From contig DAHUXM010000021.1 of NCBI GenBank assembly GCA_027307165.1, positions 1 to 64,000 of the forward strand: a DNA stretch of 64,000 bases. The letters are read 5' to 3'. Positions 36,609 through 40,395 of this stretch are shown here, in pieces. Made by a program: the position numbers and the translations under genes. The notes beneath the pieces are model-generated. The model was given only the letters and a program-made list of their open reading frames with translations, was not told the DNA's origin and did not search any database. Origin of the DNA: Gemmatimonadota bacterium. GTDB lineage: Bacteria > Gemmatimonadota > Gemmatimonadetes > Gemmatimonadales > Gemmatimonadaceae. Positions within the stretch are counted from its first letter, which is position 1. Every line of letters starts with the position of its first letter.

Positions 36609-36645
36609 CTGACGCGCCGAGTGCACCGTCAGGGATGCGCGTCAG
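36609..36645. terminator. 9-bp hairpin between convergent copper and kup genes
   Basis: Arms CTGACGCGC (36609-36617) and GCGCGTCAG (36637-36645) are complementary with a 19-base loop, and overlap the kup stop. No T-run is present, so terminator function is tentative. Confidence 0.4.
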
Positions 36646-38552
36646 ATCTCCAGCTGCGCGCCGAGCTCCACCACCCGATTCGGCGGAAGGCCAAAGAACG
36701 CTGTAGCTGGCAGTGAATTTCGCGCCATGAATGCGTACAGCTTCTTGCGCCATCGGGCCAGCTTCGTGCTTCCGATCGGAAGCAGCTGTTCGCGGCCGAG
36801 ATAGTAGGTCGTCTCCATGCGCTGCGCACGCACCCCGAATGCGCGAGCGGAGGCAAGCAGCCGTTGTGCATCCGGCGCTTCCATGAACCCGTACTGCGCA
36901 ACCACGCGCCAGAAACCGAGCGGAAGCTTGGTCACGGTCATTCGCTCGGCGTCGTTCACCTCAGGTATCTCCTTCACCTGTATCGTGAGCAGAATCACCT
37001 CTTCGTGCAGCACCTTGTTGTGCTTGAGATGATGCAACAGCACCATCGGCGCACCGCTCGAGTCGGCGGTCATGAAGACCGCCGTGCCCGGGACGCGCAC
37101 GACGTGAGTCTCGGCCAGGCTCTTCAATAGTGCATCGAGCGGAAGGCTCGCGTTACGCAGCAGCGTGCGCGTGATCCTGCGACCGGAATGCCACGTCGTC
37201 ATCAGCGTGAAGATCGCGCCGGCGATGGCGAGCGGTACCCAGCCACCGGATTCGATCTTGACCATGTTCGAGGCTGCGAACCCGAGATCGATGATAAGGA
37301 AGAAGGCGGCGAAGGAGATGTACTGCCACGGCTTCCAGTTCCACTTCATCTGTGCGAGCTGAGTGAACAACAGCGTCGTGATCACCATCGTGCCCGTCAC
37401 GGCGATGCCGTACGCCGCACTCAGTGCTGCGGACGACCCGAAGCCCAGCACCATGATCACGCAACCGATCATGAGCGCGTTGTTCACTTCCGGGACGTAG
37501 ATCTGACCCGCTTCCTCGCCGGAGGTGTGGACGACGTTGAAACGCGGGCTGTATCCGAGCTGCACGCACTGGTGCGTGAGCGAGAACGCACCCGTGATGA
37601 GCGCCTGCGATGCAATGACGGCGGCGATGGTTGCGAGCGCGATCAGCGGATACAGCATCGCGTGCGGCGCGAGTGCGAAGAATGGATTCTCCACGCTCGG
37701 CGGGTTCTCCAGTACGATGGCGCCCTGACCGAAATAGTTCAGCGCCAGAGACGGAAGTACCAGTGCGAACCATGCGATACGGATCGAACGGCGCCCGAAG
37801 TGCCCCAGGTCGGCGTACAGCGCTTCCGCCCCGGTGACAGCGAGCACGACCGCGCCGAGCAGGAGGAACGCTGTACGTCCGTCGTTCAGAAACAGCTGCA
37901 CACCGTACATCGGGCTTATCGCGAGGAGGATGTGCGGGTGCTGCATGATCGAGTAGGCGCCAAGTACACCGATCGTGCCGAACCATAGCAGCATCACCGG
38001 ACCGAACACCCATCCGATATTGGCGGTCCCGTGTCTCTGGACCAGGAACAGCAGAACGAGGATGACTACCGAGAGCGGGACGACGAGATGGCTGAGCGTC
38101 GGTGTGACTACTTCGAGTCCCTCGACCGCGCTCAGCACGGTGATCGCTGGGGTGATCACGCCGTCGCCGTAGAGCAGGGCAGCGCCGATCAGCCCCGTCA
38201 TGACGAGAATGACGCGCCATCGTTTGGATAATCGCTCGCGCTGCTGCAGGATCAGCGCGAGCAGGGCAAGGATTCCGCCTTCACCGCGATTGTCGGCGCG
38301 CATGATGAAGACGATGTACTTGACGCTCACGGTGAGGATGAGCGCCCACAATATCAGCGAGACGACGCCGTACACATTGTCCGGCGTCCGTGCGAGTCCG
38401 TATTCCGCGCGAAACGACTCGCGGAACGCATACAGCGGACTGGTACCGATGTCGCCGAAGACGACGCCGAGTGCGAGCAGCGAAAGCTTGCCGAGTCTGC
38501 GGCCGGTCGGCTCTTCTAAAGGTGGCCGTTCCGAGATTGCCGGGGCCGACAC
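36642..38552 (-). CDS. kup: Kup-type potassium transporter
   Basis: The 636-residue protein is a KUP/HAK potassium-proton symporter. It has twelve predicted membrane helices starting LSLLALGVVFGDIGTSPLYA, the signature GDGVITPAITVLSAVEGLE, and a C-terminal cytoplasmic domain of about 200 residues. It gives constitutive, moderate-affinity potassium uptake and complements the inducible Kdp system in this window. The start is GTG 38552, whose first G is also the last base of a short upstream frame's stop codon. The 5' leader is highly structured. Confidence 0.95.
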   Translation of the reverse strand: MSAPAISERPPLEEPTGRRLGKLSLLALGVVFGDIGTSPLYAFRESFRAEYGLARTPDNVYGVVSLILWALILTVSVKYIVFIMRADNRGEGGILALLALILQQRERLSKRWRVILVMTGLIGAALLYGDGVITPAITVLSAVEGLEVVTPTLSHLVVPLSVVILVLLFLVQRHGTANIGWVFGPVMLLWFGTIGVLGAYSIMQHPHILLAISPMYGVQLFLNDGRTAFLLLGAVVLAVTGAEALYADLGHFGRRSIRIAWFALVLPSLALNYFGQGAIVLENPPSVENPFFALAPHAMLYPLIALATIAAVIASQALITGAFSLTHQCVQLGYSPRFNVVHTSGEEAGQIYVPEVNNALMIGCVIMVLGFGSSAALSAAYGIAVTGTMVITTLLFTQLAQMKWNWKPWQYISFAAFFLIIDLGFAASNMVKIESGGWVPLAIAGAIFTLMTTWHSGRRITRTLLRNASLPLDALLKSLAETHVVRVPGTAVFMTADSSGAPMVLLHHLKHNKVLHEEVILLTIQVKEIPEVNDAERMTVTKLPLGFWRVVAQYGFMEAPDAQRLLASARAFGVRAQRMETTYYLGREQLLPIGSTKLARWRKKLYAFMARNSLPATAFFGLPPNRVVELGAQLEI

Positions 38553-38631
38553 TAGGCCGCGATCCTCACGGCCAGCGATCGGTCACAGAATATAGATAGA
38601 GCTCGTGTGAGCGGAGAGTGCATAACTAACT

Positions 38632-38657
38632 AAAAGGAAGCCGGCTACTCTGCCGGC
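38632..38657 (-). terminator. Intrinsic terminator inside the kup leader
   Basis: Read on the minus strand, GCCGGC-AGAGTA-GCCGGC forms a 6-bp all-GC hairpin followed at once by TTCCTTTT. It lies about 80 bases upstream of the kup start, downstream of three further hairpins, so it would stop kup transcription unless antitermination occurs. Confidence 0.6.
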
Positions 38658-38790
38658 CATAGCTGCCCTGGCAACCGCCAGCGCAACCGGAGAAACATAT
38701 AGCAAGCGGCCGGCCGATTGGCCGTTCCGCGTGAATCGGGTGCAACCTACTCAGTTTCGGCACAGAGAGGTGCCCCTGCGTACCAATTCG
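38658..38790 (-). promoter_or_regulatory. Candidate structured leader RNA (riboswitch/attenuator) of kup
   Basis: Three compact hairpins precede the intrinsic terminator. They are 38668-38681 (5-bp stem, 4-base loop), 38706-38730 (4 plus 5 bp with a small internal loop, 4-base loop) and 38759-38774 (5-bp stem, 6-base loop). Serial hairpins plus terminator ahead of a potassium transporter is the architecture of ion- or c-di-AMP-responsive riboswitches. I could not fit the known c-di-AMP (ydaO) consensus, so the class is unknown. Confidence 0.4.
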
Positions 38791-38795
38791 TCCCT

Positions 38796-38810
38796 CTTTA
38801 TGACATAAAG
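38796..38810. promoter_or_regulatory. 15-bp palindrome CTTTATG-A-CATAAAG, candidate operator
   Basis: The palindrome is perfect (7-1-7) and ends four bases before the -35 element at 38814, between divergent kup and the DUF4173-like gene. It is placed to control one or both promoters. The binding regulator is unknown. Confidence 0.5.
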
Positions 38811-38883: not shown

Positions 38884-40395
38884 ATGCCGCACGCAGTCGG
38901 CGGGTCACCCATCACAGTCACCATGCGAATCGGACTTCTCTGGACCTTCGCCGCCATCGCCGGAGCACTCGGCGCCATCCTCCTGTTCGATGCGCTTCCA
39001 GGAATCAACTGGGGCCTCTGGGTCGGCGCTGCAGTCGCAGGGCTCCTGATCTATCGCCGACCGGACCGGCGGACTCTTCGCGTCATGGCCACGCCACTCG
39101 GCTTTGGCGTCATTCTCGCTGCAGGGGCCGCGGTAACGACGACGCCGATTCTGCGCGTCGCGATAGTTGCCATCGTGGCGTCACTCATGGCGCTCGCAGT
39201 GGTGCTGGCGAGCGAACACGCGGCTGCACTCGACTATGGGCCCCTCGAGATCATAACGGCTCCGTTTCGCGCTCTCTCGCGCACCGCACGCGGCGTGATC
39301 TCATCGGTTGCCGTCACCTTCGATTCGATCGGCTCGGCGCACGAACGGCCTGCACTGCGCGGCGCTGTGATAGCGGCGCCGGTCGTGCTGGTGTTGATGC
39401 TCCTGTTCGCGAGCGCGGATCCCGTTCTGGCACGAGGCCGCGATGCCATTTACGGCGTATTCAGCGACTGGGGTGACATGCCACGCATCGTGTTCGGAGT
39501 GCTGCTCGGGTTGTTCGTACTGGGAGCATACGCGGCGACACGCGCGGCAGGGTCGTCGTTCGCATCCGCGGCACTGCTGCCATCCACTGGCGTCGAGCGG
39601 ATCGGATTGACGGAGCGGCGAATAGTACTCGCTGCTGCAGCGACGGTGTCGTGGCTGTTCGTGCTGTTGCAGCTGAGTTACCTCTTCGGCGCGTCACCCG
39701 CAATCGCCGGCTCGGGCGTGACGTTCGCGGAGTACGCCCATCGCGGATTCGGCGAGCTTACGGTGGCCGCGACAATAGCCGCGCTCCTGATAATTGCGGC
39801 GCACGACAACGTGAGAGCGGTGCACGGAAGTGAGACCGGGAAAGCGATCACGTGGCCTTCGCTGGCACTCCTCGCAGCGGTCGTCTGCATCCTCGTCTCT
39901 GCGTTCCATCGCATCATGCTGTACGAGGACGCGTACGGCTACACGACGACGCGCGTGTACGTGCAGGCGTACATGCTCCTGGCGCTCGCGATTCTGTTCG
40001 TCCTGGCGTGGCACGTGTGGCGCAAGTTCGATGTGCGCGCACTTGCGCGGCAGATAATGACGGTCGCGCTCGCGACGCTGACATTTCTCGTCTTCTGGAA
40101 TGGCGACGAATGGGTTGCCCAGGCCAACCTCGCCCGGTATGCACATACCGGCAAGCTCGACGTTCAGTACCTCACTGGCGGCCTTTCACTGGATGCGTAT
40201 CCCGCTCTGGTCCAGGCGCTTCCCCGCGTGACGGAGCCTGAGCGCGCGCAGCTTTCGCTGGCCCTCGCGCGGGAATATGCGCGCAGATCCGAGCTGCGCG
40301 GTACGAAAGCGTGGTATGAGTGGAACCTGCGACGGGAGAGGGCTCGCAGCTTCGTCGTGGTCACACATCCCGCGAATATTCCGCCGTCGTTATAG
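38884..40395 (+). CDS. DUF4153/DUF4173-family integral membrane protein
   Basis: The 503-residue protein has about 10-12 membrane helices. The central segment LFVLLQLSYLFGA with GVTFAEYAHRGFGEL and the later AFHRIMLYEDAYGYTTTRVY match the DUF4173 family. The C-terminal 80 residues are soluble. Function is unknown; relatives are often near two-component systems. ATG 38923 is an alternative start. A strong promoter and a palindrome precede it. Confidence 0.75.
   Translation: MPHAVGGSPITVTMRIGLLWTFAAIAGALGAILLFDALPGINWGLWVGAAVAGLLIYRRPDRRTLRVMATPLGFGVILAAGAAVTTTPILRVAIVAIVASLMALAVVLASEHAAALDYGPLEIITAPFRALSRTARGVISSVAVTFDSIGSAHERPALRGAVIAAPVVLVLMLLFASADPVLARGRDAIYGVFSDWGDMPRIVFGVLLGLFVLGAYAATRAAGSSFASAALLPSTGVERIGLTERRIVLAAAATVSWLFVLLQLSYLFGASPAIAGSGVTFAEYAHRGFGELTVAATIAALLIIAAHDNVRAVHGSETGKAITWPSLALLAAVVCILVSAFHRIMLYEDAYGYTTTRVYVQAYMLLALAILFVLAWHVWRKFDVRALARQIMTVALATLTFLVFWNGDEWVAQANLARYAHTGKLDVQYLTGGLSLDAYPALVQALPRVTEPERAQLSLALAREYARRSELRGTKAWYEWNLRRERARSFVVVTHPANIPPSL

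Follow-up and report, generated by a model that had tools for sequence, protein, structure and literature searches.

The kup locus and its neighbours

The stretch of DNA analysed here (the window) comprises 64,000 nucleotides of a contig from a bacterium of the Gemmatimonadaceae (genome G000). On its minus strand, kup (36642..38552) begins with a GTG codon, the same start being aligned in the related genome G001, and encodes a full-length Kup K+ transporter, as Pfam detects both the K_trans (E 1e-187) and the K_trans_C domains; this confirms the identity that an earlier note, made from the letters alone, had given to the gene behind the leader described below. Divergently oriented on the plus strand is a gene encoding a DUF4153 protein (Pfam; 38884..40395), which is the neighbour in all four genomes of the genus (G000, G001, G002 and G003) and is followed in each of them by the same HemQ-like gene. 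On the strength of these shared neighbours, we consider the locus to be the same in all four. The DUF4153 gene has its own promoter-like site (TTGACT-16-TAGAAT), the -35 element of which adjoins a palindrome (CTTTATGACATAAAG; 38796..38810) with counterparts in G001 (CTTTATGCAGCAAAG) and G003 (CTTTGTATTGCAAAG, on the other strand). The palindrome is probably an operator, as yet putative, of this divergent gene, and we infer that it and the promoter-like site belong to the DUF4153 gene and account for the conservation of the intergenic DNA on the side away from kup. A search of the genus for a longer palindromic operator pattern returned no matches. In G003 (L003), a repeat-like insert (GGATTCCCGTATTCGCGGGAATGACG) separates the palindrome from the first hairpin of the leader.

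With regard to K+ uptake, KdpA is encoded in all four genomes of the genus and TrkH was found in none of them. No kup gene was detected in G003 (89% complete), and no kimA gene in G000, G002 or G001. Of the families searched, it seems that either Kup or KimA is the sole K+ importer besides Kdp in these organisms. A direct repeat, CTTTGTACAAT-CTTTGTACC, lies 5' of the kdp operon (window 17861-17842, minus strand), and repeats such as CTTTGTGAAATCTTTATG lie 5' of kimA in other genera of the family (L042, L045, L048 and L050). The resemblance of the former to the latter may possibly reflect a shared, putative KdpE-type site.

A structured and conserved leader

Upstream of kup, the minus strand carries a leader of four hairpins extending from about 38777 to 38639: H1 (38738..38777), H2 (38707..38730), H3 (38661..38688) and H4 (38639..38658). 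H4, the stem of which had been proposed to be that of an intrinsic terminator, is followed by TTCCTTTT and lies approximately 80 nt before the kup GTG at 38552. The compact minus-strand hairpins announced in the earlier note are thus present and now have coordinates. The 171-nt leader (38800-38630) folds with a predicted energy of -78.4 kcal/mol (z -3.5), a value that none of 200 shuffled sequences attained.

Strong homologues of the leader were found in the other three genomes of the genus searched, where it lies 5' of kup in G002 and G001, as it does in G000, and 5' of kimA in G003; the G003 and G001 copies are on metagenome-assembled contig PLEG01000121 (palsa_1236) and on PMEM01000006 (fen_1247), respectively. 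The other 56 relatives searched yielded short, weak DNA matches only, two of which (L005 and L008, to the same part of the query) were read as other, coding-looking sequence. Alignment delimits an 85-nt block (38620..38704, minus strand) ending with what we show below to be an old kimA start codon. Over this block, the three independent lineages (G000/G002, G001 and G003) are 74-78% identical, compared with 37-40% identity, near saturation, at the four-fold degenerate sites of the adjacent DUF4153 gene. At the level of sequence comparison, this establishes purifying selection on the block and supports the proposal of a conserved, structured cis-regulatory leader 5' of a K+ importer gene.

Searches with a covariance model built on the block (R1) covered the order (288 genomes) and the phylum (395 genomes). 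The model found exactly one copy in each of the four members of the genus and nothing with E < 0.01 in the other genomes; three matches outside the genus with E values of 0.02-0.06 were taken as chance. The conserved block was not seen in the kimA leaders of other genera, and no account of such a leader turned up in the papers searched. Among GTDB contigs, a pattern scan picked out two relatives already known and one Treponema contig (DPXI01000135.1; L075), which fits the 5' conserved pattern, most likely by chance. The element is a real, conserved and genus-restricted cis-regulatory leader of K+ uptake.

H3 and H4 both emerge unprompted from an RNAalifold prediction. H3 forms 11 of 12 pairs in G000, and all 12 are kept in G003 despite seven changes, an outcome matched by random changes in 0.04-0.4% of cases (p 0.0004-0.004); these changes include one double change from U-A to G-C, and a G-C pair stands in G003 where G000 has a G-G mismatch. 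In G001, H3 retains 9 of 12 pairs (two are broken and one is lost to a gap), and the minimum-energy fold uses another pairing. The H4 stem is nearly invariant across the four genomes. Sliding the pairing partners lowers the fraction of paired cells from 90.7% to 29-55%, while a shuffle control, applied to four sequences only, reveals no excess covariation. G000 and G003 have similar H1 hairpins (p 0.0015) that share the loop GCCGARACU, and no H1 was found in G001; the in-register conservation of H2 is not clear. H2 contains a TCGGCCG segment (38717-38711) which, as TCGG(C/T)CG, can form an alternative seven-pair helix with TGGCCGG of the H4 5' arm in all four genomes; this helix is favoured only in G001 and carries an energy penalty of 9-16 kcal/mol in each of the others.

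A former kimA leader

In G003, the block directly precedes kimA, of which 136 intact codons are present before the contig ends. The 136 residues match KimA (PDB 6s3k, E 5e-36), and their identity to KimA proteins of other genera reaches 87%. The kimA ATG sits 15 nt past H4 and is retained in G000, G002 and G001 (window 38623-38621), where it opens a short ORF. In the window, this ORF (MHSPLTRALSIFCDRSLAVRIAA*; 38552..38623, minus strand) matches the 5' end of kimA at 37 of 69 bases, and its G001 equivalent does so at 51 of 84, with none of 100000 shuffled sequences scoring as well. Since the KimA proteins of other genera have the same N-terminus, the short ORFs descend from kimA rather than kimA from them. 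Taken together, the kimA gene of G003, the shared ATG and the remnants indicate that the leader was that of kimA and was retained when kup came to follow it. We considered whether the block might instead encode an N-terminal extension of KimA, the upstream frame being open in G003, and rejected this explanation: the block contains a 1-nt gap in G001, stops interrupt the frame in G000, and the KimA proteins of other genera start at the same ATG, often with stop codons just upstream.

The leader and the remnant have evolved differently. Between G000 and G001, both of which are without kimA, the leaders are 75% identical, whereas the remnants agree at 30 of 69 positions, which is about the neutral expectation. 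Unless both losses of kimA are very recent, the leader has therefore outlived kimA under selection. The junctions between remnant and kup show a further regularity. In G000 and G002, the TAG of the remnant shares its last base with the kup GTG (TAGTG); G001 has a different junction, at which the TAA of the remnant shares its last base with a kup ATG (TAATG). Shuffled remnants give such a one-base overlap with a probability of about 0.02 at each junction. In all three genomes, an upstream ORF thus ends on the downstream start codon, as in translationally coupled gene pairs, although the upstream ORF is here the decayed start of kimA behind a conserved leader. The old kimA ATG has no Shine-Dalgarno sequence.

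Terminator and known riboswitch classes

The intrinsic terminator proposed in the earlier note proved weak and is not supported, nor is the transcription attenuation that would depend on it. A scan of the leader found one terminator-like site (0.5 +/- 0.8 in shuffled sequences), the numbers of such sites along the window are near chance (11 vs. 11.0 expected; 19 vs. 11.9), and each of the four genomes has a negative d'Aubenton-type terminator score. The H4 stem is kept and the U-tract is not: the tract following the stem varies (TCCTTTTAG, TCCTTTCAG) and decays to TCCCTTCTG in G003. An antiterminator switch based on the alternative helix, while possible, is disfavoured in three of the four genomes.

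The kimA and ktrAB genes of Bacillus subtilis are under the control of ydaO (PMC10284832). The present leader resembles the c-di-AMP riboswitch ydaO-yuaA (RF00379) as a structured element 5' of K+ importer genes, but it does not match the covariance model of that family, which was not found in the genus. The earlier note had been unable to match the ydaO consensus, and this was borne out: RF00379 has no match in the window at the gathering score and none at the leader with E values up to 5, and the Rfam search that the note had suggested as a check found no other family there at the same cutoff. Over the window, the leader (E up to 5) and 11 leader or kup loci taken together, the Rfam hits were tRNAs and one chance match only. 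The M-box and the other metal-ion riboswitches of Rfam are likewise leaders of ion-transporter genes; unlike them, the kup leader has no Rfam match. Within the Gemmatimonadaceae, the ydaO riboswitch occurs in two of 179 genomes, G013 and G140 (L072 and L073), neither of them in the genus; judged by eye, the canonical c-di-AMP riboswitch at L073 seems to lie 5' of a cation/proton antiporter gene. All four members of the genus encode a diadenylate cyclase (DAC) domain, from which it is probable that c-di-AMP is made in the genus.

Possible modes of action

The explanation that we favour, with a confidence somewhat better than even, is that the block is a cis-regulatory leader of kimA that was retained after the loss of kimA from this site and now governs kup. 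Its mechanism is probably control of translation entry at the RNA level, the most likely of those considered. The block would be transcribed, and H3 and H4 would shape ribosome entry at the old kimA ATG; the kimA remnant may then be translated, with ribosomes re-initiating at the kup start that it overlaps, a step suggested by the overlap itself. Expression of Kup would in this manner still depend on the kimA leader.

The block might instead act mainly as a promoter and at the DNA level, with TGCnATAnG serving as an extended -10 element and transcription starting at the base of H3, such that H3 and H4 only stabilise the 5' end of the mRNA and H1 and H2 lie outside the transcript. Consistent with this, TGC.ATA.GTTTCTCC is invariant across the four genomes and suitably spaced ahead of H3 in each, a conserved TGCnATAnGTTTCTCC can be read as a promoter element, and G001 dispenses with H1. 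Yet no -35 element is visible or conserved, a promoter scan finds none on the minus strand, and the -10 match is imperfect; moreover, the H3 changes in G003 preserve pairing, and G000 and G003 have both kept H1. We regard this explanation as rather unlikely, if worth serious consideration.

A metabolite- or ion-sensing riboswitch attenuating transcription at H4, as first proposed, appears improbable. The presence of K+ transporter genes behind the leader in all four genomes would suit it, as would the H1 loop common to G000 and G003 and the alternative helix, which all four can form and G001 favours; against it stand the non-conserved U-tract and negative terminator scores, the lack of an Rfam match, the missing H1 of G001 and the energetic cost of the alternative helix in three of the four genomes. 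We give equally little credence to the broader notion of a new riboswitch class, confined to the genus, that responds to K+ status, whether K+ itself or c-di-AMP by way of an unrelated aptamer, and that was kept while the transporter changed from KimA to Kup. That the block is a passive leftover of kimA devoid of any present role seems very improbable: kimA is indeed gone from this site in the window and its first codons have decayed, but the leader is better preserved between two kimA-less lineages than the near-neutral remnants are, and the stops of these remnants land on the kup starts.

Should a retained kimA leader indeed govern kup, one K+ importer gene would have given way to another behind a control leader that did not move, and nature would have run an experiment in which regulation stayed with the function rather than with the gene. 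Given that Kup or KimA is apparently the only K+ importer besides Kdp among the families searched, the leader would sit at a central point of ion homeostasis in these bacteria, and it provides a small and precise target for asking if K+ or c-di-AMP is sensed by an RNA so far unrecognised.
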